A stretch of DNA of 64,000 nucleotides from Aquabacterium sp. (GCF_016234775.1 NZ_JACRAH010000036.1:1-64000); one strand, 5' to 3'; shown: positions 15,844 to 47,555, numbered from the stretch's first letter. Numbers and translations are program-made. The notes: generated by a model not told the origin, from the sequence alone.

Positions 15844-16049
15844 GTGTGAAAAATCCTGATGCGCAGATCCTTGCTGTCGGCGATCGGCGTGATCTGGCTC
15901 GACAGGTCTGCGTGTGTGATGAACGTGTGTGTGGCAGCGCGGTCTGGCACGCCATGGCTGGCGCACAGAGATGGCCCGGGCATGGCGCCCGAGCCAGCTG
16001 ATCACGTAAGGATCAGCGCGTTGTCAACAAAGGAGTGGGGGCAGGCCGA

Positions 16050-16587: not shown

Positions 16588-17481
16588 TTGATGCCTTCTT
16601 CTGCCGGTTCCCCGCAGCCCTCCGATCACGACGCGCTGGCTGATGCCATCCAGTCCGTTCTGGCGCCTTTGGCCGATCTGGCTGTGGCCAGAGGCCTGAC
16701 GTACGCGGTTGTCGAAGAGTCTCTGAAACAGGCCTTCGTGCGCGCCGCGCAGGAGGCGCAGTTGGCGCAAGGGTTGCCCGCACATCGCCTGGTCAGCCGC
16801 ATCAGCGCCGCCACGGGCATCAATCGCCGGGAGGTCACGCGTTTGACACAATCCGATCCGGGTGCCCCAAGTCCTGCCGGTGCGTCACTGGTGTCCCAGT
16901 TGTTCACGCGCTGGATCTCGGATCGCAAGTTGCGCGTCAAAGGCAAACCACGCGCCTTGCCACGTCAAGGTGACGCGCCCAGCTTTGAAGCACTCGCTCG
17001 CTCGATCACGCAAGATGTACACCCCCGAACCATGCTGGACGAACTCTGCCGCCTGGATCTGGCCCGTTGGGATGCCGAGACCGATACCGTCAGCCTGATT
17101 CAGGATGGCTTCACACCACGCGGGGATCTGCAGCGCATGGTCGAGTTCCTTGGCGACAACGTGGGTGACCACCTGCACGCTGCGGTCGAGAACGTGATCG
17201 GCGATGAGCCAACTCATTTCGAGCAGGCCGTTTTCGCGCAAGGCCTGTCAGCGGATTCGGTCGAACAGGTGCGTCATCTGGCGCGCAAGCACTGGAAGGC
17301 CCTGGTCACCGAGGCGGTGCCGCTGTTGGAGCAGCGTATAGACCTGGACGCGCAAACGCCTGATACCGCGACACAACGAGTGCGTCTGGGGCTGTTCACC
17401 TATCACCATGACTCGGCACGGACCGAGCCAGAAACGGGCAGTGCCGGCGTGGTGCCGCGCCGTATGCCCAGCGGGAAATGA
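16588..17481 (+). CDS. DUF6502-like protein
   Basis: N-terminal helical domain (VLAPLADLAVARGLTYAVVEESLKQAFV...), RISAATGINRREVTRL. Confidence 0.6.
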   Translation: MMPSSAGSPQPSDHDALADAIQSVLAPLADLAVARGLTYAVVEESLKQAFVRAAQEAQLAQGLPAHRLVSRISAATGINRREVTRLTQSDPGAPSPAGASLVSQLFTRWISDRKLRVKGKPRALPRQGDAPSFEALARSITQDVHPRTMLDELCRLDLARWDAETDTVSLIQDGFTPRGDLQRMVEFLGDNVGDHLHAAVENVIGDEPTHFEQAVFAQGLSADSVEQVRHLARKHWKALVTEAVPLLEQRIDLDAQTPDTATQRVRLGLFTYHHDSARTEPETGSAGVVPRRMPSGK

Positions 17482-17482
17482 C

Positions 17483-18685
17483 ATGCTGAGACACCTGAAA
17501 TGGACCTTCCTGCTGAGCCTGGTGCTGGTGCTCAACGGGTGTGGCGGCGGTGGCCCTGGTGATACCCAGGCCAATGGCAGTGGGGTGGGAACAGGGGGCA
17601 CGGGCTCTTACACCAATGGCCCGGTGTCAGGCCTGGGTTCGATCATCGTCAACAACGTGCGTTATGGGGTGGACTCGGCGCGCATCCGTCGCGATGACGA
17701 TGTCGATGGCAGTGCCAGCCATGCTTCGTCAGAGCTGAAGCTGGGCATGATGGTCGAAGTGCAGGGGTCCGGCGTGACGCCGGCTGCGACGCCAGGTGCC
17801 ACACCGGTTGCGATGGCCAGCACGGTGCGTTATGGCAGCGTGTTGGTGGGGCCTTCCGCCAATGTGGCAATCAATCTGGACGGCTCGCTGGCCTCCTTGA
17901 CTGTGCACCAGCAGCGTGTGAATGCCAATGCCCGGACGGTCGTGGCGCGCATGCCGAGTTCAGGCGATTTCGTCGAGGTGCATGGCTTGCTGGATGCCTC
18001 AGGTGTGTACACGGCGACTCGCATTGACGTGTTGAGCAGCCCGCCAGCAACCTACAAGATGGTGGGTTACGTCTCGGCCGCTTCCGATCGATATGTTTAC
18101 GTGGGACAGTCAACCGTAGTGCAGGCGATCGACTACAGAACGATGCTGGGCAGCTTGCCAGCTGGTGCGGGTGCCACGGCACGCATCCGAGTGTGGTTCA
18201 GTCCGACCCTCACTGCTGGTGCCTGGGTGGCCAGTCGCATCGTGGTGGATCAACCTCTGGTTGATGACGTGGATGAAGCCAGCGTGGAAGGCCTGGTTAC
18301 CCAGTTGCCCGATGCATCAGGCCTGATGAAGGTGGATGGGCAACTCGTGAACGTGCGTGGCATCACGTCGGCGATGGCCTTGACCTTGGGTGAGAGGGTG
18401 CGCGTAGAAGGTCGCCTGCAAGCGGGCGTGCTGATTGCCTCAGAGCTGGAGAGCGACAGTGAACTGGAGCAAGAAGCGAGTGGCACCGAGCTGCATGGGC
18501 AGATCAGCCAGGTCACGGCGCAAACGTTGGTGGTGCGGGGCGTGACGGTGGCCTACACCTCAGGTGTCGTGCAAAACAACCGGACGCTCCATGACGGTGA
18601 TTGCGTGGAAGTGCACGGCCAGGGCTACAACAGCGCAGCTCAGTTGATCGCGATCGAAATCGAGGTGGGCGACTCCTGCAATTGA
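17483..18685 (+). CDS. DUF5666 domain-containing lipoprotein
   Basis: Lipobox-like LVLNGCGGG; repeated VSGLGSIIVNNVRY / GMMVEVQGSG / VEVHG modules. Confidence 0.7.
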   Translation: MLRHLKWTFLLSLVLVLNGCGGGGPGDTQANGSGVGTGGTGSYTNGPVSGLGSIIVNNVRYGVDSARIRRDDDVDGSASHASSELKLGMMVEVQGSGVTPAATPGATPVAMASTVRYGSVLVGPSANVAINLDGSLASLTVHQQRVNANARTVVARMPSSGDFVEVHGLLDASGVYTATRIDVLSSPPATYKMVGYVSAASDRYVYVGQSTVVQAIDYRTMLGSLPAGAGATARIRVWFSPTLTAGAWVASRIVVDQPLVDDVDEASVEGLVTQLPDASGLMKVDGQLVNVRGITSAMALTLGERVRVEGRLQAGVLIASELESDSELEQEASGTELHGQISQVTAQTLVVRGVTVAYTSGVVQNNRTLHDGDCVEVHGQGYNSAAQLIAIEIEVGDSCN

Positions 18686-18723: not shown

Positions 18724-19968
18724 TTACTGCACGGCACTCTTGATCTCGATGGTCACGTTCTGAGCGCCCGTTTTGATGGCGCCGGACTGACCAATCCAGT
18801 CTCCAGATTGGGGCATGGCATCGCCGCCTTTCGACACGCGCGCGGTGACGATCACATCGCTGAAGCCTGAGAGTTTGAACTGTGGCGCCATGGCCTGGGC
18901 ATCGTTCAACTCGAATTGGTAGGGTAGATCTCGCACCTGTTTGCGGATGATGGCCAGTGGCATCTTGGGGCCTTGTGCGGCCTTGGCATAGATGAACACG
19001 GTGTCATCGGGAGACACCTTGCCTGCCAGTTGTGCGGACAGGGTCACGGTGCCGGTGATTTGCTTGTGGCCGACGCTGATCCCGGCGTCGCCTTGTGCTG
19101 CTTCTGGCTTCAGGACAGGCAGGCCCGCCCGCTGCCGCGCATCATCCAACGCAGCTCGCATCTGGCGAGCCAACGCTGGATTGTCCGCTGGGGCATGTTG
19201 CACGGCCCGCTCCCACAGCGATGCGGCCGTCTTGTAGTCCTGCTTGTCATAGGCGATGGTGCCGGACAGCGACAAGGCCTTGAAGTTGTTCGCGTCCAGG
19301 CTCAAGGCCTTGTCGATCAGCTTGATGGGCTCGCCCTCCAGCTTGCGGCCTTGTGTCACCGCCAGCGCGTCGGCGTAGTCGGCATACAACTGGGCCTCAT
19401 CGGGGCGCTGCTCGATGGCCTTGCGATAGGCCGGCAACGATTCATCAAAGCGGCGCAGCGCGGCATAGGTGCGCGCCAGCATGGCCCAGCCTTCCGGGTT
19501 GTTGGGTTCAGCCTTGAGTTTGGCCACCAGGCTGTCGACCATGCCTTTGATCTGGTCTTCGTTCATGGCGTGTGGCGCACTGCTGCCTGACGCAGCACTG
19601 TTGCCGCTCGTGGCCTCACCATCGGCGGCAGCCGTGCTCACGGTAGTCCCACTGGGGCCAATCTGCCAAGCACTGGGCGTACCGACCAGGTAGTACCCCA
19701 TGGCGCCTGTGGCCACGACAAAGGCGGCCATGCCCCACATCAGCTTGCGAGAGACGCGGGGTGGCGCTTCCGGTGCCGAGGACACCAGCTTAGCTGTGGC
19801 ACTGGCTGCGCTTGCATGCACCTCGGCGCCGCTCATCACGGCATCGAGCAGTTGACGCTCCAGCTTGGCCTTGGCCTCCTGATAGGCGGTATCGGGCAGG
19901 GTGCCGCTGGCATGCAGATCGGCCAGTTGGCGCAACTGGGTCTTGAGGTGGTTGATGTCCAGGCTCAT
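18724..19968 (-). CDS. ccmI: c-type cytochrome biogenesis protein CcmI
   Basis: TPR region NPEGWAMLARTYAAL..., position at end of ccm operon. Confidence 0.88.
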   Translation of the reverse strand: MSLDINHLKTQLRQLADLHASGTLPDTAYQEAKAKLERQLLDAVMSGAEVHASAASATAKLVSSAPEAPPRVSRKLMWGMAAFVVATGAMGYYLVGTPSAWQIGPSGTTVSTAAADGEATSGNSAASGSSAPHAMNEDQIKGMVDSLVAKLKAEPNNPEGWAMLARTYAALRRFDESLPAYRKAIEQRPDEAQLYADYADALAVTQGRKLEGEPIKLIDKALSLDANNFKALSLSGTIAYDKQDYKTAASLWERAVQHAPADNPALARQMRAALDDARQRAGLPVLKPEAAQGDAGISVGHKQITGTVTLSAQLAGKVSPDDTVFIYAKAAQGPKMPLAIIRKQVRDLPYQFELNDAQAMAPQFKLSGFSDVIVTARVSKGGDAMPQSGDWIGQSGAIKTGAQNVTIEIKSAVQ

Positions 19969-19974
19969 GGTGTC

Positions 19975-20478
19975 TCAAGGCTGCTCGGGCAGATCAGGGG
20001 TATCAGGATCGAAGGCATCGGCTTGCATGCGGGCGCGGCGGCGCAGCGTCCACCACAGGAAGGCCAGGCCTCCCACCGCCAGCAGGCCTGGGCCGAACCA
20101 CAGCAGCGCCGTGCTGCGATCCACCGGCGGGCGGTAGAGGATGAAGTTGCCGTAGCGAGACGTCATGTAGTTGCGGATCTGTTGCTCGTTCTGCCCGCGT
20201 TGCAACTGTTCGCGGATCTCCTGGCGCAGGTCGACGGCCAGCCCGGAGTGCGAATCGGCCACCGTCTGGTTCTGGCAGACCAGGCAGCGCAGTTCGCCGG
20301 CAATGGCCATCATGCGGGCTTCCTGTTCGGGGTTCTCGGCCAGCAGGGCGGCTTCACCGGCCCAGGCGTTCGGTGATGTCACCGTGAGGTGCAGGCACAG
20401 CACCAGGCCACACCAGGCCAGCATACGCAGGGCTGGCCGGACCCATGAGTGTGCGTGTGGGACAGCAAGATCAGCCAT
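19975..20478 (-). CDS. ccmH: cytochrome c-type biogenesis protein CcmH
   Basis: LRCLVCQNQTVADSHSGLAVDLR signature. Confidence 0.95.
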   Translation of the reverse strand: MADLAVPHAHSWVRPALRMLAWCGLVLCLHLTVTSPNAWAGEAALLAENPEQEARMMAIAGELRCLVCQNQTVADSHSGLAVDLRQEIREQLQRGQNEQQIRNYMTSRYGNFILYRPPVDRSTALLWFGPGLLAVGGLAFLWWTLRRRARMQADAFDPDTPDLPEQP

Positions 20479-20995
20479 TGAGTTGCCTCAGCAGGGGTTC
20501 GATTTCATTGACCAGCACGTCCGGCGTGATGGGGCCGATGTGCTTGTGGCGGATCACGCCCGCCTTGTCGATGATGAAGGTCTCGGGCACACCATAGACG
20601 CCGAAGTCGATGCCGATGCGGCCCTCATGATCGAACAAGGATTCAACATAAGGGTTGCCGCCATCACGCAGCCAGGCCAGGCCATCCGGGCGCTCGTCCT
20701 TGTAGTTCAGGCCATAGATGGGCACGACGTTGCGGCGCGCGAATTCAACCAGCACAGGGTGCTCCTGCCTGCAGGCGCCACACCACGATGCCCACACATT
20801 GAGCATCCAGACCTTGCCCAGCAGGTCTTCCTTACGCAGGCTGCGGCTGGTGTCGCTCAAGGCGGGCAGATTGAAGGCGGGCGCGGGCTTGCCGATCAGG
20901 GGGGAGGGGACTTCGCGCGGGTCACGTTTGAGGCCCAGGCCGAGGAACACGGCCAGCGTCAGGAAGATGCCCAGCGGCAAGAGGAAGCGTTTCAT
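20471..20995 (-). CDS. ccmG: thiol:disulfide interchange protein DsbE/CcmG
   Basis: WASWCGACRQEHPVL thioredoxin motif, N-terminal anchor. Confidence 0.93.
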   Translation of the reverse strand: MKRFLLPLGIFLTLAVFLGLGLKRDPREVPSPLIGKPAPAFNLPALSDTSRSLRKEDLLGKVWMLNVWASWCGACRQEHPVLVEFARRNVVPIYGLNYKDERPDGLAWLRDGGNPYVESLFDHEGRIGIDFGVYGVPETFIIDKAGVIRHKHIGPITPDVLVNEIEPLLRQLNG

Positions 20996-22935
20996 GCTGT
21001 GGCTCCTGTTGCTGTGGGTGTGGAGCGCTCAACCGGCTTGCGGACTCGGTAGCGTCGGTCACTGGCTGCCATCATGCCGCCGATGGCCATGATCAGGCAG
21101 CCTCCCCAGATCCAGTCCACAAAAGGCTTGTGATAGACGCGGATGATCCACTCGCCCGTCTCCAGTTGTTCACCCATCGACACATACAGGTCACGCGTGA
21201 TGCCTGCATCAATGGCGGCTTCGGTCATGGGGTTGCTCTGCACCTTGTAGATGCGCTTTTCGGGGTAGAGGGTGCTCACCGTCTTGCCATTGCGTGTGAT
21301 GCGCATCTCACCACGGGCTGCCACGAAGTTCGGGCCTTGCACCTCGCGCACATCCTGCAGCTGGAAGACATAGCCGCCCACCTCGGTGGTGTCGTGCAGC
21401 TTCATCTTCACATCGCGTTCTGTCTCGTAGGTGCGCACCATGCTGACGCCAAACGCAAAGGCAGCCACACCCAGGTGGGCCACGATCATGCCGGCCATGG
21501 CCAGAGGGATCTTGCGCCAGCCCTTTTCGTGCAGGTCCACCGCGATGGAGGCCACGATCCAGAAGGCCATCCACAAGCCGATGGAGGTGCCCAGCGAGAT
21601 CTTGCCGGCCAGCCATTGCGTGGCCAGCGCCGCCACGATCGACACCGCCAGCGCCCAGCGCAGTCGCACGGCCAGATCAGGCAGCTCGGCTTGCTTCCAG
21701 CGTGCCAGCGGGCCCACCCCCATCAGGAAGACCAGTGGCGTCATCAGCGGCACGAACACCGTGTCGAAGTAGGGTGGTCCCACCGAGATCTTGCCCAGCC
21801 CCATGGCATCGAGGAACAGCGGGTAGAGCGTGCCCAGCAGCACCGAGCCCATGGCCACGATCAACAGCACGTTATTGGCCAGCAGCATGGATTCTTTGGA
21901 GACCAGGCCGAAGCGCTGGCCCAGGCCCACGGTGGGCGCACGCCAGGCATACAAAGTGAGTGATGCGCCGATCACCACCACCAGGAAGGTCAGGATGAAC
22001 GCGCCTCGCAGTGGGTCGGTGGCAAAGGCATGGACGGACGACAGCACGCCCGAGCGGACCAGGAAGGTGCCCAGCAGCGACAGCGAGAACGCCGTGATGG
22101 CCAGCAGCACCGTCCAGTTCTTGAAGCTGCCGCGCTTCTCGGTCACGGCCAGCGAGTGCATCAAGGCCGTGCCAGCCAGCCAGGGCATGAAGGAGGCGTT
22201 TTCAACCGGATCCCAGAACCACCAGCCACCCCAGCCCAGCTCGTAATAGGCCCACACGCTGCCCAGCATGATGCCAATCGTCAGGCAGATCCAGGCGGCA
22301 ATCGTCCAGGGGCGCGTCCAGCGGGCCCAGGTGGCATCGAGTTGGCCGCCCAACAGGGCCGCAATGGCGAAGGCGAAGGCCACGGAGAAGCCCACATAGC
22401 CCATGTACAGCATGGGCGGGTGCGCCACCATGCCGGGGTCCTGCAGCAGCGGGTTCAGGTCTCGGCCATCCAGCGCCATGGGCAGCAGGCGCTCGAACGG
22501 GTTGGAGGTTGCCAGCATGAACAGCAGGAAGCCGAAGCTGATCATGCCCATCACGGCCAGGATGCGGGCCAGCACGGCTTGCGGCAGGTGCTGGCTGAAT
22601 TGCGCCACAGCCAGCATCCAGAAGGACAGCATCATCACCCACAGCAGCAGCGAGCCTTCGTGGCCACCCCAGACACCAGCGATGCGATAGGGCAGTGGCA
22701 GCGCGCTGTTGGAGTTGGAAGCCACGTACAGCACCGAAAAATCATGGCGGATGAAGCTGGCCATCAGGGCGATGAAGGCCGCGCCGATCAGCACGAAGAG
22801 CACGCGCGCCAGCGGTCGGGCCAGGCCCATCAGGGCGGCATCATCCTTGTAGGCGCCCCACAATGGCATGGCCGACAACAGCATGGAGACGGCGAGCGCC
22901 AGCACCAGCGCGATCTGGCCCAGTTCGGGAATCAT
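20992..22935 (-). CDS. ccmF: heme lyase CcmF
   Basis: [30 protein letters not shown]. Confidence 0.96.
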
Positions 22936-23393
22936 TTGTGCTCCTTGTGTTGGCCGGCTTCGATGCGGGCGTTGGCGTCGGCCGCGCGCTTGAGGGCTTC
23001 GGCGGCTTCGGGCGGCATGTAGTTCTCATCGTGCTTGGCCAGCACCTCTTGCGCAACGAACACGCCGTCCGTGCCCAGCTTGCCTTGCGCCACCACGCCT
23101 TTGCCTTCCTTGAACAGGTCGGGCAGGATGCCCTGATAGCGCACGGGCACCTTGCGGAAGGTGTCGGTCACCACGAAGTTGACCATCACGCCGTCTCGCG
23201 TCACCGAGCCTTTTTCAACCAGACCACCAAGGCGGAAGGTGCGGTCCAGCGGGGCCTCCTTGGCCACGATCTGCGAGGGCGTGAAGAAGAACACCAGGTT
23301 CTTCTGAAAGGCGTTGAGGACCAGTGCGGCCGCGATGCCCAGGATGGCCAGGCCACCCAGGATGAGCATCAGGCGCTTCTTGCGGGGTGTCAT
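22932..23393 (-). CDS. ccmE: cytochrome c maturation protein CcmE
   Basis: [26 protein letters not shown] with heme-binding His. Confidence 0.95.
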
Positions 23394-23394
23394 C

Positions 23395-23577
23395 TTATGT
23401 ATCCTCTTGTTCGCTGCGGCTGGCCAGCTGGGCATGGCGCCAGGCCTGGCGTCGGCGATGGGTGGCCATCAGCGGCTCGACCAGCATGCACAGCAAGGTG
23501 ACGCCATAGGCGCCCCAGATGTACAGGCCGTAGCCGTCCATGGCGATGAAGTCGGAAAAGCTCTGCCATTGCGACAT
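23395..23577 (-). CDS. ccmD: heme exporter protein CcmD
   Basis: Small protein, [20 protein letters not shown]. Confidence 0.9.
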
Positions 23578-23584
23578 GGTTCAT

Positions 23585-24343
23585 TCACTCCTGGCGACCG
23601 TTCTGATGACCATGGACGAGCGCTTGCACCCACTGGGTCTCGCTTTCGCGCTCCAGCACGATGGCCCGCGTGCGGGTGAAGACCACGGCAAAGGCGTAGG
23701 CCCAGAAGGCGATGGTCATGAGCAGCATGGCGGTGAGCATGGTCGAGGCCATGGTGGGGGCGGCCGTCATGCTGATGGACGCGCCCTGGTGCAAGGTATT
23801 CCACCAGCGCACCGAGAAATAGATGATGGGCACGTTGATGGCACCAACCAATGCAATCAGGGCGCCAGCGGCATCGGCACGGCGCGGGTCATCGATGGCT
23901 TCGACCAGGGCCATGTAGCCCAGGTACAGAAAGAGCAGGATCAGCTCGGAGGTGAGCCTGGCATCCCAGACCCACCAGGCGCCCCAGGTGGGTTTGCCCC
24001 AGAAAGCGCCGGTCCACAGCGCGATGAAGGTGAACAGGGCACCCGTGGGCGCAATCGCGCGGGCCAGCATGGAGGCCAGCCTCACCTTGAAGGCCCAGCC
24101 TGTGGCAGCCCAGAAGGCCATGGCCATGTACAGCACCATGGACATCCAGGCAGCAGGCACGTGGATGAAGATGATGCGGTAGGACTGACCTTGCTGAAAA
24201 TCCGTCGGCGCGACGATGAAGCCCATGTACAGGCCTGCCGCGCTCATCAACAGGCAGACGGCCCATAACCAGGGCATGAGGGCCCCGGCCAGGCGTTCGA
24301 ACTTCGAGGGCGCGGCGAAAGTGGTCCAGTTCAGCTTAGACAT
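23585..24343 (-). CDS. ccmC: heme exporter membrane protein CcmC
   Basis: IFIHVPAAWMSMVLY, WGAWWVWDARLTSELILLFLYLGY. Confidence 0.96.
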   Translation of the reverse strand: MSKLNWTTFAAPSKFERLAGALMPWLWAVCLLMSAAGLYMGFIVAPTDFQQGQSYRIIFIHVPAAWMSMVLYMAMAFWAATGWAFKVRLASMLARAIAPTGALFTFIALWTGAFWGKPTWGAWWVWDARLTSELILLFLYLGYMALVEAIDDPRRADAAGALIALVGAINVPIIYFSVRWWNTLHQGASISMTAAPTMASTMLTAMLLMTIAFWAYAFAVVFTRTRAIVLERESETQWVQALVHGHQNGRQE

Positions 24344-24346
24344 CCA

Positions 24347-25012
24347 TCAATCCAGTGCAATCTTGAGCGCAGCGGCGGTCGCCCAGGGGGCGCCCAACAA
24401 GGTCAGTAGCAACAGCGCACCTAGCAGGGACAAGTGGCCTTCCGGCGAGAGCCCCGCAGAGACCGCCACCACGGCCCCCGCCCCGAAAATCAGCACGGGC
24501 ACGGCCAGTGGCAGCACCAGCAGCACGATCAGCATGCCACCGCTGCGCAGGCCCAGCGTCAGGGCCGCGCCCACGCCACCCAGCAGGCTGAGGACCGGCG
24601 TGCCCAGCAGGAGGCTGAGCACGAGGGTGGCCAATTGTCCTCCTTGCAGGTCGAACAGCAGGCCCAGTACGGGCGATGCCAGCACCAGGGGCAGGCCATT
24701 GATGCTCCAGTGCGCCATGGCCTTGGCCAGGGTGAGGCCCGGCAGTGACTGGCCAGACAGCAGCATCTGCTCCAGGCTGCCATCTGCAAAGTCCGATCCA
24801 TACAGGCTGCCCAGGGACAGCAGCGAGGCCAGCAGTGCACACACCCACACCACGCCAGGGGCGATGGTGCGCAGCGTCTGGGGTTCCGGTCCCACACCCA
24901 GGGGGAACAGGCTGGCCGCCACGATGAAGAACACCAGGGGCAGCAGGGCCTCCACCCGGCGGCGCATGGCCAGCTTCCAGTCTCGCAGGATCAAAGGCCA
25001 CATGCTGCTCAA
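24347..25012 (-). CDS. ccmB: heme exporter protein CcmB
   Basis: LGVGPE, DFADGSLEQMLLSGQSLP; CcmB topology and position. Confidence 0.94.
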   Translation of the reverse strand: MSSMWPLILRDWKLAMRRRVEALLPLVFFIVAASLFPLGVGPEPQTLRTIAPGVVWVCALLASLLSLGSLYGSDFADGSLEQMLLSGQSLPGLTLAKAMAHWSINGLPLVLASPVLGLLFDLQGGQLATLVLSLLLGTPVLSLLGGVGAALTLGLRSGGMLIVLLVLPLAVPVLIFGAGAVVAVSAGLSPEGHLSLLGALLLLTLLGAPWATAAALKIALD

Positions 25013-25602
25013 CCCTTCCGCACCAGACTGAGGTCCAGCTCGATGGCCCCAGGCAGGGACAGCGCCTGGTGACTGGTCAGGATCACGGCGCCCCCGTTCT
25101 GACAGTGCTGCTGGATCAACTTGTTGAGCGTGGTGATGCCTTGATCGTCCAACGCGTCAAAAGGTTCGTCCAGGATCCAGAGCTTGCTGGAGGCAGACAG
25201 ACACAGCCGAGCCAGGGCCACCCTGCGCTTCTGCCCCTGTGACAAGGTACGCACAGGCGAAAGCCGTTGCCTGTGCACACCCATGTGGGTCAGCGCCTCG
25301 GTGCAGGTCTGATCGTCAAAGGGCAGATCGTGCAGGCGCAGCAGGAAGCTCAGAGCTTCGATGGCGTTGAGGTCGTCCTTGAGCCCATGCTGGTGACCGA
25401 TGTAGGCCAGGGGCACGGGGCGGTCGATCTGGCCGTCGGCGGCTTGTGACAAACCCGCCAGCAGCCGCAAGAGGCTGGTCTTGCCTTGCCCATTGGGCCC
25501 GCGCACCCACAGCAGCTGGCCAGGCATGACCGCCATGTGCAGATGTGCAAAAAGCAGCCGACCACCGCGCCGACAGGCCAGATCCTGGGCGTGCAGGTGC
25601 AC
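25009..25602 (-). CDS. ccmA: heme exporter ATP-binding protein CcmA (GTG start proposed at 25602)
   Basis: RGPNGQGKTSLLRLL Walker A, LSQGQKRRVALARL signature, WILDEPFDALD. Confidence 0.92.
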   Translation of the reverse strand: MHLHAQDLACRRGGRLLFAHLHMAVMPGQLLWVRGPNGQGKTSLLRLLAGLSQAADGQIDRPVPLAYIGHQHGLKDDLNAIEALSFLLRLHDLPFDDQTCTEALTHMGVHRQRLSPVRTLSQGQKRRVALARLCLSASSKLWILDEPFDALDDQGITTLNKLIQQHCQNGGAVILTSHQALSLPGAIELDLSLVRKG

Positions 25603-25612
25603 CGGAGTGTGA

Positions 25613-28099
25613 TCAGTAGTCGTAGCGGTAGCCAAGGAAGTAGGTGTAGCGGGTGCTTTGGTCGTTGTTGGCCACGCCTTCGGTGCGCGTGTAATCCACA
25701 TTCAGGTTGGATTCCAGCGTGACGGAGGGCCGAGGCTTGAATGATGCCTTCAAACCGGGGCCCCATGCTACCGTGGTGATGTTCAGTCCCGTTGTGGTGT
25801 CCTGGCTGATGTTGCGTTGCCAGCGCAGACCGGGCTCCAGCTGCCAGGTATCTGTCAGTGGCGTCATGTTGTTGTAGTTGAGCATGTAGGTTTTGATCTG
25901 CTTACCCCGCATCAACGAAACGGTGAACACATTCGTGTCGCGTGCCGAGTACAGGTTGGAGCCGATGGCCAGCAGGCTCAAGGTCTTGGACAGACCGCTG
26001 GCGGCCTGCCCTTGCGGCAAGACGGCGTTGGGGGCGATGGCGCCTGTGCGATTGAAATCGAGTGTGGCACCGGTCTGCCATTGCGGCGAAACCGGCGTCG
26101 TGACGGACAGCATCGAGTGTGTCCAGTAAGACGTGTTGGCGCGTACCAGTTCCCTCAACTGATCGACGGTGTAGCCCCGGTTCTTCAGATCGGTGATGGT
26201 TTGAGGGATGATGCCCGCGTCCGTGAACTCCTGGTACTGGAAGAACAAGGTCTGGCTGAGCGATGCGGGCGCCAGGCTGCGGCGCTCATAGGTCGCCAGG
26301 ACCGTCGTGTTGTCCTCCGCCGTGTAAGTGCCCTGCAGGCTCACCACGTTGATCTTCTTGAAGATGACGTCGTAGTCCGTGGAGGCCATCAATGACGAGC
26401 TCTGCGTGAAGTAACGCAGGTCGGCGCCCGTTGCGCGACGGTCCACCTCGCCATCGATGTTGCGCTGCAGGACGAACAGGGAGGCACCCATATTAGGCGT
26501 GAGCGCATCGGCGTCAATCGAGGTGCCGAAGAACTGCCGTTTGGCTGCACCCAGCTTGTCCGTCGGTTGGCCTGCCGCGGCCGATACCTTCCACTTGGGC
26601 CTGAAAGCGTAGCTGCCTGAGGCGCCGTCATAGCGGCCTTCGCCGCCCCACATGGCAGATTGGCGACCCAGTCTGCCACGCAAGCCATTCTTGAGCCCCT
26701 GGTAGTCGAAGTAGGCGGCGTTCAGTCGGTTGCGGTCGCGGGACTTGCCCTTGAGTTGGGCATCGCTGAGCATGTTGTAGTCGAACTGATCGCGGAACAC
26801 CAGTTTGATGTCACGGTCAGCGTCGCGGGAGCGCCAGGTGGTGTCGACGTTGGTGGACAGCAGGCGCTGATCGGTCGTGCTGATGGGCGCCTTGCTCCGG
26901 TTGTTGATCTCGTCCGCTGACAGCAGCGTGCCATCCGTGTCTCGCACGGCTTGTGTGGCCGTGGTGGACTTGCCGCCGTAGTAGTACTGAGAGATAGAGC
27001 CCGTGGTGGTGATCGCGCCTTCCGGTGTCTTGATGGACTCGATGGTGGGCACCAGCTTCAGATCGGCAGGCTGTATCCCGGCCAACAAGCCTTTGACACG
27101 CTCTGCGCCAGGCCCGCTGGGGTATTGCTTGAGATAGGATTCGAACTCCGCCTGCGCCTTGGCCTGTTCGCCCTGAGACAGCCGCACCATGCCCAGCAAC
27201 TCCTGCGCATCCGGCGTGACGGCGGTGGCCGGCAGATCGAGCAACTGGTTGAGCAACCTGATGGCTTCTTCCGGCTTCTGTTGTTCGTAGGCCTGGCGCG
27301 ATTGATCCAGCAGGTCGCGGGCTTGCTGATCGGCGGTGGCAGCGGGCGCTGTCGCCTGGCCTGGCGCTGATGCTTTGCTGGCAGTGGCGTCGCCCAGCTT
27401 GACAATCACCGCGGCGGGAAAGCGCGACAGTTGTTTCATCGCCGCTTCCGCCTCTGCCAGGGTGCTGAAATAGCCCAGATCCATTTCGTGGACCTGTTTG
27501 CCGTCCACCACCCGGCGAGCCGTGAACACCTGGTAGTTCTGCAGTGATTGCGGGATGGGCGCATCGATTTCCAGCTTGGGGTCAGCCGAACGAGCCAGCG
27601 CGATCACGTAGCGCTGACTGGGCATCCGCTCTTCCTGTGCTTTACCGGTGATGGGCTTGACGGCCGAGCCCAGACCCTCGAGCACGACTTCGATGCTGCG
27701 GTCGCCCTTGCCGGCGCGCACCTTGAAGTTGCCGGCCTGGCTGAACGAGATCACCAGGCGGCGGTTGATGTCGTCGAGCTTGTCCGTGCGAACGGGCTCG
27801 TCGGAGATGGTGATGACAGGCAGACCATCCACCTTGACGATACGGCGCTCGCCTGCCACGAAGCCCGGGTCGATATCGGTCAGACGAAGTTGGTAGTAGG
27901 CCTGGGTCAGGTCCCGGGTTCGCGACGCGGTGGTGCGCAGGACGCTCACTGGCGTGCTCAGGCGGATCTGCACGACGGCATGGTTGCCCTCTCGGCGCAA
28001 ATCAACCTCATCCAGCATTTCGGCGTGCAGCAGCGAACAGGCGGGGAGCGCAAGCAGGGTGGCCAGCCATCTGGCGCGGTGGGTGGACTTCATGGTCAT
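25613..28099 (-). CDS. outer-membrane beta-barrel protein with N-terminal beta/SPOR-like and TPR regions; candidate porin of a porin-cytochrome complex
   Basis: Signal peptide; SPOR-like MDLGYFSTLAEAEAAMKQLSRFP; TPR-like segment; C-terminal half of amphipathic strands ending in aromatic YRYDY; sits between multiheme cytochrome and ccmA. Confidence 0.65.
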   Translation of the reverse strand: MTMKSTHRARWLATLLALPACSLLHAEMLDEVDLRREGNHAVVQIRLSTPVSVLRTTASRTRDLTQAYYQLRLTDIDPGFVAGERRIVKVDGLPVITISDEPVRTDKLDDINRRLVISFSQAGNFKVRAGKGDRSIEVVLEGLGSAVKPITGKAQEERMPSQRYVIALARSADPKLEIDAPIPQSLQNYQVFTARRVVDGKQVHEMDLGYFSTLAEAEAAMKQLSRFPAAVIVKLGDATASKASAPGQATAPAATADQQARDLLDQSRQAYEQQKPEEAIRLLNQLLDLPATAVTPDAQELLGMVRLSQGEQAKAQAEFESYLKQYPSGPGAERVKGLLAGIQPADLKLVPTIESIKTPEGAITTTGSISQYYYGGKSTTATQAVRDTDGTLLSADEINNRSKAPISTTDQRLLSTNVDTTWRSRDADRDIKLVFRDQFDYNMLSDAQLKGKSRDRNRLNAAYFDYQGLKNGLRGRLGRQSAMWGGEGRYDGASGSYAFRPKWKVSAAAGQPTDKLGAAKRQFFGTSIDADALTPNMGASLFVLQRNIDGEVDRRATGADLRYFTQSSSLMASTDYDVIFKKINVVSLQGTYTAEDNTTVLATYERRSLAPASLSQTLFFQYQEFTDAGIIPQTITDLKNRGYTVDQLRELVRANTSYWTHSMLSVTTPVSPQWQTGATLDFNRTGAIAPNAVLPQGQAASGLSKTLSLLAIGSNLYSARDTNVFTVSLMRGKQIKTYMLNYNNMTPLTDTWQLEPGLRWQRNISQDTTTGLNITTVAWGPGLKASFKPRPSVTLESNLNVDYTRTEGVANNDQSTRYTYFLGYRYDY

Positions 28100-28113
28100 A
28101 CGGGATACGGGTA

Positions 28114-30591
28114 TCAGTCCCAGTTGCGATAGGTGTTGCCTTTGTTGCCCAGAGGCCGATGGCAACCGGATTGAGAGCAATCGGTGACACCTGTTCTTTG
28201 CTGGTGTGTCAGCGACTTGCGTTCCATGGAGCCCTGGTAGGCGGTGCCGGCGTTATGGCAGGCATAGCACCAGCCCGAGCCACTGCCCATGCTGTTGTTG
28301 TGGTTCATCACGGCGGTGCCGAAACCGCCCGGGTTGGTGCTGGTGTGACACGCCTTGCAGTCCATGTTGACCCCGTTGAGCAACTGCGCTTCAGGGATGT
28401 GGTTGTTGGGCTTGGCGGTGGCACCCCAGCCCGCATGCGCTGGCGTGTGGCAGGTCTTGCAAGACTGCGCGCTCATGGCAGTGTGATTGGTGGTTACGCT
28501 GGTAGCCCAGGCTTGCTGGGACTTGTGGCAGCTGTCGCACTTCACGCCCCCGACCTGGAGGGGGATGTGGTTGCCGGGCTTGCCGGTAGCCGTGCTGCCG
28601 TTGTGGCAGTTGTCGCAGGTGCCCGTGCCCACGGCATTGGTCGGTGCGTGGGTGTAGACCACGTTGCTCCATGACGCGGTGGACTTGTGACAGGACTCGC
28701 AGCCGCTGCTGATGCCCGCATGCACGGCATTGTTGGGCTTGCTGGTCAGGCCATAGGCGGCGCTCAAGTGACAGGTCGAGCATTGGCCAACGATGCTGAC
28801 GTTGGCGTGGAAGCGGCCCGGGCTCCAGCTGCTGTAGCCACTCTTGTGGCAGGTGTCGCAATTGGTGATGGCAGCGCCCGCCAGCGATTGGTAGGCGATG
28901 TGGTTGGATGGGCGGCCGTCTGCAGGTGGAAAGGCCCCGGAGTGGCAGGTCGAGCAGGCGTTCGTGACGGTGACCTGGGTGTGGTTCCACTTGGTAGGCG
29001 TCCAGCCGGTGGTGTTGTGGCAGCTGTAGCAGTTGGCGGTCACCGGGATGTGGCTGCCAGGCTTGCCCGTGGTTGCACTGCCGTTATGACAGCTAGCGCA
29101 TTGCGTGGTCGAATTGAACAGGCTGTGGTTCACCTTGGCGCCTGCCCAGCGGCTGGTGTTGTGGCAGGACTCGCAGCCGCCGGTCACGGTGCTGTGCACG
29201 GCGTTGGCTGGCTTGCTGGTCAGTCCATAGACTGCTGTCAGGTGGCACGAAGCACATTGCCCGACGATGCTGACGTTGGCGTGGAAGCGGCCGGAGTTCC
29301 AGCTGCTGTAGCCACTCTTGTGGCAGGTGTCGCAGTTGGTGATGGCGGCACCCGCCAGCGATTGATAGGGGATGTGGTTGGAGGGGCGCCCGTCAGCCGG
29401 CGGGAAGGCACCCGAGTGGCAGGTCGAGCAGGCATTTGTGACGGTGACCTGCGTGTGGTTCCACTTGGTGGGCGTCCAGCCCGTGGTGTTGTGGCAGCTG
29501 TAGCAATTGGCGGTCACGGGGATGTGGCTGCCGGACTTGCCTGTGGCCGCACTGCCGTTGTGGCAGCTTGCACACTGTGTGCTCGCATTGAACAGGCTGT
29601 GGTTCACCTTGGCCCCAGCCCAGCCACTGGTTTTGTGGCAGGACTCGCAACCGCCTGTGACCGTGCTGTGCGTGGCCGTGTTGGGCTTGCTGGTCAGCCC
29701 ATAGGCCGACGTCAGGTGGCACGATGCACATTGCCCGACGATGCTGACATTGGCGTGGAAGCGGCCCGGGTTCCAGCTGCTGTAGCCACCCTTGTGGCAG
29801 GTGTCGCAGTTGGTGATGGCGGCACCCGCCAGCGATTGATATGGGATGTGGTTGAACGGGCGGCCATTGGCTGGCGCGAACGAGCCGGAGTGGCAGGTCG
29901 AGCAGGTACCCGCGACCAGCGTTTGTGTGTGATTCCAGTTGGTGGGCTTCCAGCTGTTGACACTGTGGCAGCTGATGCAATTGGCCGTGACAGGGATGTG
30001 GTTGGCTGCCTTACCGCTGGCGGTCGCGCCGTTATGGCAGGACGCGCAGTTGGTGCTGCTGTTGAAGCCACGGTGATCGGGCCTGGCGCCGTTCCAGTTG
30101 CGGGTGTTGTGGCAGGAGTCGCAACTGGCGCGCGTGGCGATGTGGTTGCCGGATTTGCCTTGGGTGCGGACCCCATCGTGACAGGTTTGGCACGCCGTGC
30201 CGGGCGGGATGCCTGTGGTGTGACTGAAGCGCGGATTGCTGAAGGACTGCGTGCCGTGGCAGCTGTCGCAGCCCTGCATCGACGAGTTCGTCGGAATGTG
30301 GGTGGGCGGTATCACCACATTGGATCTGGCCTGACGCGAGCCCTGTGTGTGGCAGGTCTGGCAGTCTCTGGGGGTGCCTCTGAAGATGCCGTTGGTGTGG
30401 CAGCTTTCGCAGCGCTGGGTGGCGTGGGCGCCATTCAGCGGGAACCCGGTTTTGAAATGATCGAACTTGCTGTTGGCTGCGCTCTGGGCTTCAGCCCGCC
30501 CCGGCACCACGCCCAGCACCACGCACATGACCAGCAGCAGCAAGAACGCTGCCTCGCGGTACCAGGTGTGAGCGTGCGGGGAGGGTGTCAT
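28114..30591 (-). CDS. large multiheme c-type cytochrome (28 CXXCH + 1 CX4CH by manual count), Ser/Thr/Asn-rich
   Basis: Signal peptide (VVPGRAEA|QS); CXXCH motifs counted by eye; hexaheme tandem repeats. Confidence 0.93.
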   Translation of the reverse strand: MTPSPHAHTWYREAAFLLLLVMCVVLGVVPGRAEAQSAANSKFDHFKTGFPLNGAHATQRCESCHTNGIFRGTPRDCQTCHTQGSRQARSNVVIPPTHIPTNSSMQGCDSCHGTQSFSNPRFSHTTGIPPGTACQTCHDGVRTQGKSGNHIATRASCDSCHNTRNWNGARPDHRGFNSSTNCASCHNGATASGKAANHIPVTANCISCHSVNSWKPTNWNHTQTLVAGTCSTCHSGSFAPANGRPFNHIPYQSLAGAAITNCDTCHKGGYSSWNPGRFHANVSIVGQCASCHLTSAYGLTSKPNTATHSTVTGGCESCHKTSGWAGAKVNHSLFNASTQCASCHNGSAATGKSGSHIPVTANCYSCHNTTGWTPTKWNHTQVTVTNACSTCHSGAFPPADGRPSNHIPYQSLAGAAITNCDTCHKSGYSSWNSGRFHANVSIVGQCASCHLTAVYGLTSKPANAVHSTVTGGCESCHNTSRWAGAKVNHSLFNSTTQCASCHNGSATTGKPGSHIPVTANCYSCHNTTGWTPTKWNHTQVTVTNACSTCHSGAFPPADGRPSNHIAYQSLAGAAITNCDTCHKSGYSSWSPGRFHANVSIVGQCSTCHLSAAYGLTSKPNNAVHAGISSGCESCHKSTASWSNVVYTHAPTNAVGTGTCDNCHNGSTATGKPGNHIPLQVGGVKCDSCHKSQQAWATSVTTNHTAMSAQSCKTCHTPAHAGWGATAKPNNHIPEAQLLNGVNMDCKACHTSTNPGGFGTAVMNHNNSMGSGSGWCYACHNAGTAYQGSMERKSLTHQQRTGVTDCSQSGCHRPLGNKGNTYRNWD
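28627..30048 (-). repeat. three tandem 474-bp (158-aa) in-frame repeats, six CXXCH motifs each (boundaries approximate)
   Basis: Anchor GCTGGTCAG at 28741, 29215 and 29689; CGATGCTGAC at 28791 and 29265: spacing exactly 474 bp. Confidence 0.9.
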
Positions 30592-32485
30592 GAGTCAACG
30601 GCGGGGACGACCTACTTCTACTGCCAACTGCAAAATGTGAGAACTGCACATTTATTGTACGGTATCCGTCCTGCTGTAGCACCGAGTGTTTTTCAAGTTG
30701 TTTCCAGTCTTTTGTGCTGTGGCACTGCTCGCAGCGCCCGCCAAACTGGCCGTCATGGGTGTCGTCCTTCTGGTGGCAGTCGATGCAGCGTTGGCCTGTT
30801 TCGGCAACCGCCTTGCCGGCGGGGGCTGCCTGGGTGTGACACGCTTCACACTTCACGGTGCGGTGGGCGCCGGTTAGTGGGTAGTTTGTTTGCCGGGCAT
30901 GGTTGAAGTCCCAGGATTTCCAGTGACGGGTGTTGTGGCAACTCTCGCAACGGGTACCCAAACGGGCCTTGTGCTGGTCGTCTTTTCGGTGGCAGGCGAC
31001 GCATTCGCGCTGCGCGTCCTTGAAACGCTTTGTTACGTGGCAATCTTTGCATTCAACACGTCCATGGCTACCGGTTAAGGGGAACCGTGTCTTGCCGTGG
31101 TCGAACACGGTCGCCTTCCAGTCCTTGTCGCCATGGCATTGCTCACATTGCTGGCCCTGTGTGCCTTCGTGCTTGTCGTCCTTCTTGTGGCAGGCGAAGC
31201 AGCTCATCGCGGTGTTGCGGAAGGCTTTCAGGTCGCCCTTGTGGCAGTCGCTGCACCTGATCTGGCTGCGAGCGTGGGCATTGCGCAAGGCAAAGCGGGT
31301 CTTGTCGTGGTCGAAGCGGCCCGCCGTGGCGCGCCAGTCGCGTTCGGAGTGGCAATCCACGCAGGTCTTGCCCAGTGTGCCCTCGTGCTTGTCATCCTTT
31401 TTGTGGCACGAGAAGCAGTCCATGGGCGCCTCCTTGTACATGGCGCTCTTGTGGCAGTCCGAGCAGCTCGCCTTGCCGTGCTTGCCCAGCAGCGGGAAGC
31501 GCGTTTTGTCGTGGTCGAAACGAGGCGGGTCTTTCCAGCCGCTTTCGCTGTGGCAGGAGGCGCAGTCCTTGCCCAGACTTTCCTTGTGCTTGTCGTCCTG
31601 CCTGTGGCAATCCCAGCATGGCTCGGGCAGCTTCTGTTTGTACAGCGGGCCGGTGTGGCAGTCGGTGCAGGCGGTCTTGCGGTGCTTGCCGCGCAAGGCG
31701 TAAGAGGTGTCGGTGTCGTGGTTGAAGTCGATGGCCTTCCATAACTTGGCGCCGTGGCAGGTCTCGCACTTGCCGCCGAACTGGCCTTTGTGCTCGTCTT
31801 CCTTCTTGTGGCAAGCAACGCAGGTCTTGGGCGTGTCCTTGAAGCGGCCATTGGCGTGGCAGTCATCGCACTTGGCCTTGGTGGCGTGCTTGTCTTCCAG
31901 CGCGAAGTGGGTCTTCTTGCCGTGGTCGAAGTCGGTGGTTTTCCAGCCGATTTCGCTGTGGCAGTCCGAGCACTTGCCGCCAATGCCGCCTTTGTGTGCA
32001 TCGTCTTTCTTGTGGCAGCTCAGGCATTCGCCGGCGGCTTGCCAGTACTTCTTGCTGCTGGTGTGGCACTTGTCGCAGGCCACATCCAGGTGTTTGGCCT
32101 TAAGCAGGTAATCCGTCTGTTTGTGGTCAAAGCGTTTGGTGTCGAGCGCCACGATACGGGCCTGGCGCCCCTTGTGGTCGGTGTGGCAGTTGCGGCAGGT
32201 GGCGTCGGGCTTCTGGCGGCCATGGAAGCCTGTACGGGCCTTCATGTCCTGGCCGACCTCCTTGTGGCAGACCACGCACTGGGCGTCCTGGCCCTTTGGG
32301 TTGAAGCGCACATGGCAGTTGGCGCATTCATGTTCGACCTTGGCGTGGCCGCTGATGACATCACCCGGCGCCAGCACCGATTCGATCGATTGCGCATGGG
32401 CGGGCCCGCCCAGTACCAGCAGGAGCAAGGCAAGCAGCAGCAGGCCCAGGTGCAGCCAGCGTTTTGGATTCCGGGGCATCACCAA
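30491..32485 (-). CDS. multiheme c-type cytochrome, cytochrome c3-like triheme modules (24 CXXCH), Lys/Asp-rich
   Basis: Signal peptide (GGPAHA|QS); CxxCHKKDDxHxGxxGxxCxxCH modules repeated about seven times. Confidence 0.92.
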   Translation of the reverse strand: MVMPRNPKRWLHLGLLLLALLLLVLGGPAHAQSIESVLAPGDVISGHAKVEHECANCHVRFNPKGQDAQCVVCHKEVGQDMKARTGFHGRQKPDATCRNCHTDHKGRQARIVALDTKRFDHKQTDYLLKAKHLDVACDKCHTSSKKYWQAAGECLSCHKKDDAHKGGIGGKCSDCHSEIGWKTTDFDHGKKTHFALEDKHATKAKCDDCHANGRFKDTPKTCVACHKKEDEHKGQFGGKCETCHGAKLWKAIDFNHDTDTSYALRGKHRKTACTDCHTGPLYKQKLPEPCWDCHRQDDKHKESLGKDCASCHSESGWKDPPRFDHDKTRFPLLGKHGKASCSDCHKSAMYKEAPMDCFSCHKKDDKHEGTLGKTCVDCHSERDWRATAGRFDHDKTRFALRNAHARSQIRCSDCHKGDLKAFRNTAMSCFACHKKDDKHEGTQGQQCEQCHGDKDWKATVFDHGKTRFPLTGSHGRVECKDCHVTKRFKDAQRECVACHRKDDQHKARLGTRCESCHNTRHWKSWDFNHARQTNYPLTGAHRTVKCEACHTQAAPAGKAVAETGQRCIDCHQKDDTHDGQFGGRCEQCHSTKDWKQLEKHSVLQQDGYRTINVQFSHFAVGSRSRSSPPLTHDTLPARSHLVPRGSVLAAAGHVRGAGRGAGAG
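30636..30650. promoter_or_regulatory. candidate regulator palindrome TGTGAGAACTGCACA upstream of the 28-heme cytochrome
   Basis: Dyad related to 33505-33519; 45 bp upstream of ATG at 30591. Confidence 0.4.
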
Positions 32486-32506
32486 GGCCTGATCAGGTCG
32501 AGCGGA

Positions 32507-33430
32507 TCAATACGCATGCACCGCCACGACATGGAAGATCGCGCACAGCACCATGATCCACACGAAGGGCACATGCGCCACGTGCCACATGGAAAACAAG
32601 CGCTCGAAGGTCTGGAACTGGGCGGCACGCTGCACCGACAAGGCGTAGCTGTCGATCTGCTCGCAGCAGCTGCGGTAGCGGGTGAGCGCTTGTTGCTTGC
32701 TCCACTTCTTGTCGGCCACCGCCTGCTTGATCAACTGTTTGACGTCGGCCTTGCATTGCTGGGCCACGCGTTGGCGCTGGATGGGCAGCACGAACAAACG
32801 CCACAGGTGCCGGGCTCCCTGATTGGCGCCATCAACCAGGGTTTGCCGCTCGAAGGCCTGCATGGCCTGCAGCACGCCGGGCATGCTCTGGAACTGGGTG
32901 TCTGCGGCCTGTTGTTCCTGGCCCATGGCGCTACGCAGGCTGGCGAGGGTGGCTTTTTCGCCGCGCAGATCGGCATGCAGGCGAACATACAGGAAGCGCC
33001 CGATCACCCCGCTGAGTGCCACGATGATCATGGCAAACAGCGCCACGGCGGCGTTGGTGGAGCCAATGTGGAAGGTGGAGTGCAGCAGGATCAGCCAGGG
33101 CCCCAGGATGCCCAGCACCATGTGGGCCGCAAACCAGTACTTCGAGGCGCCCCAGCTGTAGGTGACGCGCCAGCGCTTGCGCAGGGGGTAGGTGAAAAGC
33201 AGCAGCATCGAGACACCGCCCGCCACGCCCAGCCAGTAGCCCGTTTGCGACCAGGAAGTGAACCAGCCTTGGGCCGAGATCCACCACGCCGCCAGCGTCA
33301 GCGCCGTGATGGACAGGTAGATGAGCAGGTCAGTGCGCAAGCGCGCCTGAACCTGCGGTGCCTGTTGCCCGAGCGTGCTGCGCCCAGGTGGTGTGGCGCC
33401 AGGGGTGACGGTGGAGGTTGTGGCGCTCAT
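32507..33430 (-). CDS. polytopic membrane protein, probable b-type cytochrome/electron-transfer membrane subunit
   Basis: About five hydrophobic spans with paired His (AAHMVLG...LLHSTFHIG and WHVAHVPFVWIMVLCAIFHVVAVHAY); adjacent to multiheme cytochromes. Confidence 0.6.
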   Translation of the reverse strand: MSATTSTVTPGATPPGRSTLGQQAPQVQARLRTDLLIYLSITALTLAAWWISAQGWFTSWSQTGYWLGVAGGVSMLLLFTYPLRKRWRVTYSWGASKYWFAAHMVLGILGPWLILLHSTFHIGSTNAAVALFAMIIVALSGVIGRFLYVRLHADLRGEKATLASLRSAMGQEQQAADTQFQSMPGVLQAMQAFERQTLVDGANQGARHLWRLFVLPIQRQRVAQQCKADVKQLIKQAVADKKWSKQQALTRYRSCCEQIDSYALSVQRAAQFQTFERLFSMWHVAHVPFVWIMVLCAIFHVVAVHAY

Positions 33431-33504
33431 GGGGGCCCGATTTCACTGCTTGACGGCCCGTTCGGGCGGTGCAAAAAATTCTATCGACAGTGTATGGTTG
33501 AAAA

Positions 33505-33519
33505 TGTGCAATTTGCACA
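33505..33519. promoter_or_regulatory. perfect palindrome TGTGCAA-T-TTGCACA in the divergent intergenic region
   Basis: 15-bp perfect dyad between the divergent starts at 33430 (-) and 33607 (+). Confidence 0.6.
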
Positions 33520-33606
33520 CGTTTAACATCGCTTACATGAAATCCGGTTGAAGCCATCATCCGGATCGAGTCTGCTTCGGTGTGTTGTTGCCTGCCTTGT
33601 TGTCCC

Positions 33607-34920
33607 ATGTTGATTCCTGCTTACCTGACTTTGTATGGTGGTGTTGCTGCCCTGGCCGTGGGTGTGCACCTGGTGCTGAGGCAACGCCGTCGCAAGGCGG
33701 ATGCGGCTGCGCTGGCGGAGGCCAGCCAGGCTGGCCTGAACCAGCCCGCCTCTCTGCACCCGGTGGTCGATCCCACTCGGTGTTTTGGCTCCGGCGCCTG
33801 CGTCAAGGCCTGCCCGGAGGAGGCGCTGGGCATCGTGGACGGCAAGGCCACACTGGTGAATGCGTCTGCGTGCATCGGGCATGGGGCCTGTGTCACGGCC
33901 TGCCCGAGTCAGGCCTTGTCACTGGTTTTTGGCACCTCGGAGCGCGGGGTCGAGATTCCCGTGCTGAGCAAGGAGTTCGAGACCAATGTGCGCGGCATCT
34001 TCATTGCTGGCGAACTGGGCGGCATGGGGCTGATCCGCAAGACCACGGAGCAAGGTCGCCAGGCCATGAACGGCGTGCGCCAGCGTGTGGCAGAAAGCCG
34101 CGCCGATGCGCCGCTGGATGTGGTCATCGTGGGCTCTGGCCCGGCCGGCATCTCGGCGGGCTTGAGCGCCTTGCAGCACAAGCTGCGCTACCGCATCCTG
34201 GAGCAGGAGGATTCGTTGGGGGGCACGGTGTACCACTACCCGCGCAAGAAGGTGGTGATGACGGCGCCAGCCAAACTGGACCTGGTGGGCAGCATGAGCC
34301 TGGGCACCGAGGTGGCCAAGGAGGCCTTGCTGAGCTTCTGGCACGACGTGGTCGGCAAGACCGGCCTGAGCTTCCAGTTCGGCGAGCGCCTGGAAGGGAT
34401 CGACCCGCAAGCGGACGGCAGCTTCATCGTGCGCAGCAGCAAGGGCGAGCACCACACCAAAGCCGTGTTGCTTGCCTTGGGCCGACGGGGCTCGCCCCGC
34501 AAGCTGGATGTACCCGGTGAGGAGCGCAGCAAGGTGGTGTACCGCCTGATCGACGCCGAGCAATACCGTGGCCAGCGCATGCTGGTGGTGGGCGGGGGCG
34601 ACAGCGCCATGGAGGCCGTCATCGACCTGGCGCAACAACCTGGCTCGCAGGTGACGCTGTCCTACCGCAGTCAGGCCTTTTCGCGCGTGAAGGAGAAAAA
34701 TCGCCAGCAGCTCAAGCAGCTGCAGGACGAGGGCCGCATCCTGGTGTGGCTGCAATCACAGGTGCTGCGCATTGAAGACGATCACGTGGTGCTGCGCACC
34801 CAGGATGGCGAGCAGACCTTGCGCAATGACGGCGTGATCATTTGCGCAGGCGGCGTGCTGCCGACGCCTTTGTTGCAGGCCATCGGCATACGCATGGAGA
34901 CCAAGTACGGCACCGCCTGA
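33607..34920 (+). CDS. membrane-anchored FAD/NAD(P)-dependent oxidoreductase with ferredoxin-like Fe-S domain
   Basis: N-terminal TM; CFGSGACVKACP and CIGHGACVTACP; GSGPAGISAGL and VVGGGDSAMEA dinucleotide-binding motifs. Confidence 0.85.
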   Translation: MLIPAYLTLYGGVAALAVGVHLVLRQRRRKADAAALAEASQAGLNQPASLHPVVDPTRCFGSGACVKACPEEALGIVDGKATLVNASACIGHGACVTACPSQALSLVFGTSERGVEIPVLSKEFETNVRGIFIAGELGGMGLIRKTTEQGRQAMNGVRQRVAESRADAPLDVVIVGSGPAGISAGLSALQHKLRYRILEQEDSLGGTVYHYPRKKVVMTAPAKLDLVGSMSLGTEVAKEALLSFWHDVVGKTGLSFQFGERLEGIDPQADGSFIVRSSKGEHHTKAVLLALGRRGSPRKLDVPGEERSKVVYRLIDAEQYRGQRMLVVGGGDSAMEAVIDLAQQPGSQVTLSYRSQAFSRVKEKNRQQLKQLQDEGRILVWLQSQVLRIEDDHVVLRTQDGEQTLRNDGVIICAGGVLPTPLLQAIGIRMETKYGTA

Positions 34921-47447: not shown

Positions 47448-47555
47448 GGTCGCCTCCAAAAGCGGTCTCACAACAACACCGAACCCGGACTGGCTCGGTA
47501 TGGGAGCGAAGACTAGGCAGTGGGGGTGGGCTCCACAAGACCATGCAGCGCGTGC

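Follow-up and report, generated by a model that had tools for sequence, protein, structure and literature searches.

An iron-sulfur flavoprotein accompanies the PCC3 porin-cytochrome conduit of Aquabacterium sp. and is proposed as its fifth component

The 64,000-nucleotide window analysed here, contig C20 of a draft genome of Aquabacterium sp. (4.27 Mb, 68 contigs, 94.7% complete), encodes a PCC3-type porin-cytochrome conduit consisting of an inner-membrane protein (IMP), two multiheme cytochromes c (MHCs; P0003 and P0002) and an outer-membrane porin, and, divergently oriented, an iron-sulfur (Fe-S) flavoprotein. The four-gene PCC3 locus is already a known type, and the link to the flavoprotein is the new result: gene content across hundreds of genomes strongly supports its role as a near-obligate fifth functional component of PCC3. 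An original prediction made from the sequence alone had proposed five such proteins and had counted the flavoprotein as part of the system; all five open reading frames were confirmed at the positions given.

Co-occurrence of the flavoprotein with PCC3

The distribution of IMP and flavoprotein was compared in genome samples of the family (150 genomes), the class (369) and the phylum (349) and in 80 named PCC3 loci. In the family sample a strong IMP was found in 9 genomes and the flavoprotein in the same 9 and in G019 (p = 1e-13), whose copy sits inside an operon for cytochrome c maturation (ccm). The class sample contained the IMP in 42 genomes, the flavoprotein in 43 and both in 41 (Fisher p = 7e-51); the exceptions are G339 with the IMP only (410 contigs) as well as G247 (fragment) and G326 (72% complete) with the flavoprotein only. 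The 41 genomes carrying both, among which related ones are not fully independent, span 33 families, and the pairing is therefore not confined to one lineage. Moreover, the genomes with two IMPs (G182, G185, G250, G448 and G465) are those with two flavoproteins, a coincidence expected by chance at 1e-6; two matches of the flavoprotein search in G183 correspond to one broken gene. At strong scores, both proteins occurred in the same four genomes of the phylum sample, where the weaker flavoprotein matches were other, larger proteins.

The two genes are frequently, although not always, linked. Within the class sample the flavoprotein lies at most 2 kb from the IMP for 37 of 47 IMP copies and at most 12 kb away for 4 more, and 28 of the 80 named PCC3 loci include it in the fetched stretch. 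Among 50 PCC3 genomes whose fetched locus lacks it, 46 encode one elsewhere. The flavoprotein is thus kept even where it is unlinked, which favours a functional relationship over hitch-hiking. A description of the flavoprotein as a PCC3 component was not found in the open literature (figures, supplements and subscription journals were outside the scope), nor is the divergent gene mentioned in the main text of the report defining PCC3 (PMC5566968), so that its recognition as the fifth component is likely, if not certain, to be novel.

Components of the conduit

PCC3 is known from Sideroxydans lithotrophicus ES-1, Leptothrix cholodnii SP-6, Aquabacterium and others and comprises an IMP of ca. 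300 amino acids with five transmembrane (TM) helices, SGXXG on TM4 and WX3HX13H on TM3 and TM5; the median CXXCH number is 34 in the extracellular and 21 in the periplasmic cytochrome, with few residues per heme (PMC5566968). The Aquabacterium locus shares with this type the outer-membrane barrel, a very heme-rich extracellular and a 21-27-heme periplasmic cytochrome, the size, helices and motifs of the IMP and the order IMP - periplasmic MHC - extracellular MHC - porin, which recurs in most of the 80 named loci. The four genes differ from it in nothing essential; here, ccm genes directly follow them. Gene order, heme-rich cytochromes, both IMP motifs and the barrel jointly support the assignment as a PCC3 cluster, as had been anticipated.

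Related conduits were compared and set aside. MtrCAB, MtoAB and PioAB likewise span the outer membrane with a porin and multiheme cytochromes, which are periplasmic and, in Mtr, also extracellular; however, they carry decahemes instead of 24- and 29-heme cytochromes, for which no family match above cut-off was obtained, and their inner-membrane partner is CymA rather than a b-type IMP. Membership was rejected, as TIGR03508 matched only below cut-off and inside the 29-heme protein. PCC4 (He et al. 2017) resembles the present system in the layout of the IMP motifs and carries Fe-S redox genes in its clusters, but it has no extracellular cytochrome and contains three smaller periplasmic MHCs (4, 5 and 10 hemes), and was rejected on this cytochrome composition.

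The flavoprotein, recognised by Pfam and NCBIfam matches, starts with a single helix, after which come two ferredoxin-like Cys motifs and the FAD and NAD(P) domains. A run of Arg follows the single helix, and the remainder of the protein is therefore predicted to be cytosolic according to the positive-inside rule. The closest solved relatives of the FAD/NAD(P) domain are YpdA/Bdr and thioredoxin or ferredoxin-NADP reductases, to which it aligns end to end (7a76, 7a7b), whereas the helix and the two Fe-S motifs are additional. An identity as the bacillithiol disulfide reductase YpdA/Bdr was dismissed on the basis of a curated score of 155.2 bits against a cut-off of 339.9. Across 11 homologues the NAD(P)-binding GGGDSA motif and the residues R363, R369 and K371 do not vary, and of 75 distinct homologous regions 74 show both Cys motifs in recognisable form. 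In motif 2, His replaces the second Cys in all 74, while the corresponding position of motif 1 is occupied by Ser (47), Cys (26) or Gly (1); these exchanges make a His-ligated or a [3Fe-4S] cluster possible. A larger relative (L181, 1372-3792), by the look of its sequence, combines cyclic-nucleotide-binding-like domains and 4Fe-4S motifs with an NAD(P)/FAD domain, and may play the corresponding part in other cytochrome systems.

The IMP agrees with the b-type-like membrane protein originally proposed. Its model (pLDDT 88) consists of five helices of membrane-spanning length with a helical insertion between TM4 and TM5, the WX3HX13H motifs being located at 99 and 282 and SGXXG at 140. From the positive charge of these segments, the N-terminus, loop 2-3 and the long TM4-TM5 insertion are assigned to the cytosol. 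In this topology H103-X13-H117 and H286-X13-H300 can hold a putative inner and outer heme b. Comparison with solved structures by sequence yielded no match for the IMP.

The numbers of heme motifs in both cytochromes match those first reported and are far above chance, as composition-matched shuffles contained on average 0.2-0.3 and at most 4 CXXCH compared with 24 in P0003 and 28 plus one CX4CH in P0002. Each protein has ca. 28 residues per heme motif and a signal-peptide-like N-terminus, with no lipobox recognised by eye; the placement of P0003 in the periplasm and of P0002 at the cell surface is predicted by homology. Homologues of the periplasmic partner contain 24 motifs in 67 of 72 cases, while those of the extracellular cytochrome carry 12-60 hemes in complete clusters. 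A fixed inner and a variable outer wire would fit a constant width of the periplasm and a variable outer reach, a line of reasoning with a parallel in PMC10734462.

The large beta-barrel suspected at the end of the gene row was recovered by AlphaFold (18 homologues; mean pLDDT 81, pTM 0.55) as 22 strands in residues 361-828, a part with pLDDT mostly above 80. Before it come a beta region (ca. 29-235), which resembles SPOR in 10 of the 18 members, and a TPR domain (ca. 256-341), the only portion matching solved structures by sequence. The best structural matches of the barrel are 22-strand siderophore receptors (PirA, Z 18.6, root mean square deviation 3.8, 355 residues) and OprD-type porins, which inform about the predicted barrel fold and not about the function of the porin. 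The 24-heme cytochrome could plausibly dock at the periplasmic TPR part, which is common to the family.

Proposed electron path and its direction

The presence of the flavoprotein beside PCC3 suggests that electrons run to or from NAD(P)H and not quinones alone. With modest confidence we favour a PCC3 conduit with its own maturation genes and, as fifth component, a cytosolic NAD(P)H:FAD:Fe-S protein anchored in the inner membrane; electrons would most likely flow outward through this system. Electrons would pass on the cytosolic face from NAD(P)H via FAD to the two Fe-S clusters of the flavoprotein, then to the inner (H103/H286) and the outer heme b (H117/H300) of the IMP, further along the 24-heme periplasmic wire and through the TPR/22-strand barrel porin to the 29-heme surface cytochrome, which might deliver them to minerals, humics or partner cells. 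Redox potential and membrane potential both favour outward flow from NAD(P)H, whereas reducing NAD(P)+ with Fe(II) costs energy. Pairing a membrane-anchored cytosolic NAD(P)H/FAD/Fe-S protein with a transmembrane protein of two hemes gives an arrangement similar to a split NADPH oxidase. As in NADPH oxidases and ferric reductases (FRD), a cytosolic NAD(P)H-FAD module would feed two stacked b hemes across the membrane; the differences, namely separate proteins, added Fe-S clusters, five instead of six helices and no Pfam FRD match of the IMP, restrict this likeness to an analogy.

The established PCC3 model of He et al. instead describes a conduit for electron uptake, for example in Fe(II) oxidation, with the IMP delivering electrons to quinone; on this reading the flavoprotein would be a side branch or helper. 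PCC3 also occurs, however, in named isolates such as Caenimonas koreensis, Polaromonas jejuensis and Piscinibacter defluvii, which are organotrophs, and the near-obligate flavoprotein is left unaccounted for. In favour of uptake, the IMP was modelled as quinone-active and its di-heme motifs resemble those of quinone-active cytochrome b (PMC5566968), and several Fe(II) oxidisers carry PCC3, among them Sideroxydans and Leptothrix. In strain CL21 the PCC3 clusters were expressed whether or not iron was oxidised, except for the IMP of copy 2, which rose when the cells could oxidise iron (PMC12442390). Against it, expression of both PCC3 clusters of S. lithotrophicus ES-1 was reduced with Fe(II)-citrate relative to thiosulfate (PMC8788666), and one of them was hardly detected in the proteome, while the extracellular cytochrome of the other, Slit_1448, was undetected on magnetite (PMC12016527). 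In the present genome neither RuBisCO nor an MtoA/MtrA-type decaheme above cut-off was found, weak evidence given the 95%-complete draft. Together with the expression data of ES-1 and CL21 these absences lean, short of proof, towards export or another role unrelated to Fe(II). We consider uptake to quinone unlikely.

Beyond the quinone-active model, the occurrence in Fe(II) oxidisers and the limited weight of the two absences, further points speak against outward flow from NAD(P)H. A shared distribution is no proof that flavoprotein and IMP touch each other, and the contacts between the subunits, the cofactors, the part of NAD(P)H on the cytosolic side and the direction of flow are what we infer. 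No Pfam b-cytochrome family matched the IMP above cut-off, and its fold comparison in the PDB listed generic helical bundles and no NOX, STEAP or cytochrome b, although such a helical-bundle comparison is uninformative and excludes nothing. Finally, the literature examined holds no biochemical test of any PCC3.

Relation to cytochrome c maturation

The genes ccmABCEFGHI come immediately after the porin and share its strand (25701 down to 18724), the start of the ccmA frame overlapping the end of the porin gene. They had escaped the original prediction and extend the module to ca. 16 kb instead of 9 kb. CcmF was detected in 64 of the 150 family genomes, including all 9 with PCC3 (p = 3e-4), and the idea that System I cytochrome c maturation (Ccm) is exclusive to PCC3 genomes of the family was accordingly rejected.

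An alternative reading is that the flavoprotein is a maturation reductase which helps Ccm to load the ca. 50 PCC3 hemes and stands outside the electron path. This role is kept as a rival because most of the unlinked flavoproteins examined lie in a ccm operon: 9-10 of 15 loci away from the IMP are found at the end of ccmA-I, adjoining ccmI, an arrangement seen in several Burkholderiaceae. The thioredoxin-reductase-like FAD domain, in which, however, no CXXC was seen, and the presence of ccm genes in 22 of 29 named loci having a porin point in the same direction. Opposed to this, 54 of the 64 Ccm-positive family genomes are devoid of the flavoprotein (p = 4e-10), so that it was rejected as a general Ccm component. 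Of 30 loci in the class sample, 24 have the flavoprotein next to the IMP and 1 next to a recognisable CcmI, and the number of its copies goes with the IMP and not with CcmF (two IMPs, two flavoproteins and one CcmF in G048; one, one and two in G091 and G143). Judged from these gene distributions, the flavoprotein tracks PCC3 and not Ccm, and a role restricted to maturation appears improbable. In nine loci (L042, L044, L119, L124, L145, L147, L157, L165 and L167) a CcmI-like gene adjoins the flavoprotein while the rest of ccm is missing from the fetched stretch; it possibly encodes a dedicated apocytochrome chaperone.

In a further alternative, electrons would enter from extracellular donors of low potential (cathodes, reduced humics or sulfide) and reach NAD(P)+, supplying reductant. 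Such inward flow would use the same anatomy as the outward path and profit from the often reversible electron transfer of flavoproteins, but it is uphill from Fe(II), opposed by the membrane potential and unaccompanied by a detected RuBisCO in this genome, and we regard it as very improbable.

Genomic context

The features of the module are compiled in Table 1. Its closest named relatives are metagenome-assembled genomes of Aquabacterium (IMP 70-88% identical). The only other sampled genome of the genus (G033, 100% complete) contains CcmF and neither PCC3 nor the flavoprotein, and the module is therefore patchy even inside the genus. DsbD, which supplies thiol reductant for cytochrome c maturation, is encoded at 51517-53193 of the window, ca. 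17 kb from the PCC3-ccm module and on the opposite strand; DUF6502 and DUF5666 proteins (16588-18685) adjoin ccmI. Elsewhere in the window we noted a protein with a PEP-CTERM-like sorting signal, VPEPATVSLYALGLAGLLMGARRRK, at its C-terminus (15055-16005) and a gingipain-like Peptidase C25 with a dockerin domain (44778-47471), judged unusual in a betaproteobacterium.

Table 1. Predicted genes of the PCC3-ccm module and the adjoining flavoprotein (window coordinates)
Feature	Position	Strand	Basis
Fe-S flavoprotein, membrane-anchored	33607..34920	+	likely start 33607, open frame from 33580; Pfam/NCBIfam matches, IMP co-occurrence
PCC3 inner-membrane protein (IMP), 307 amino acids	32507..33430	-	five TM helices, two WX3HX13H, SGXXG
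P0003, predicted periplasmic multiheme cytochrome c	30491..32485	-	24 CXXCH
P0002, predicted extracellular multiheme cytochrome c, repetitive	28114..30591	-	28 CXXCH + 1 CX4CH
Outer-membrane porin, 828 amino acids from ATG at 28099	25613..28099	-	beta/SPOR-like + TPR, then 22-strand barrel
CcmA, heme-export ATPase (System I cytochrome c maturation)	25009..25701	-	ABC_tran; adjoins ccmB
CcmB	24347..25012	-	PF03379, E 8e-70
CcmC	23585..24343	-	PF01578, E 6e-35
CcmE	22932..23435	-	PF03100, E 1e-36
CcmF	20992..22935	-	PF16327, E 3e-127
CcmG/DsbE, thioredoxin-like	20471..20995	-	Redoxin match; position
CcmH	19975..20478	-	PF03918, E 2e-45
CcmI, apocytochrome chaperone (TPR + CycH Ig-like)	18724..19968	-	PF23892, E 2e-36; PF23914

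Implications for PCC3

PCC3 is widespread in freshwater Proteobacteria, and a possible role as iron oxidase has been discussed for it. With a near-obligate partner of the NAD(P)H/FAD/Fe-S type, both the direction of PCC3 and its inner electron partner become testable, and the flavoprotein constitutes a marker that could tell PCC3 from other porin-cytochrome systems. As a bolder and more tentative proposal, PCC3 might primarily be not an iron oxidase but a five-part trans-envelope NAD(P)H dehydrogenase which exports cytosolic reducing power, i.e. an analogue of a split NADPH oxidase extended by a wire of ca. 50 hemes and often encoded together with the genes for heme attachment. If electrons indeed flow outward, the presence of PCC3 in genomes should not count as evidence of Fe(II) oxidation.

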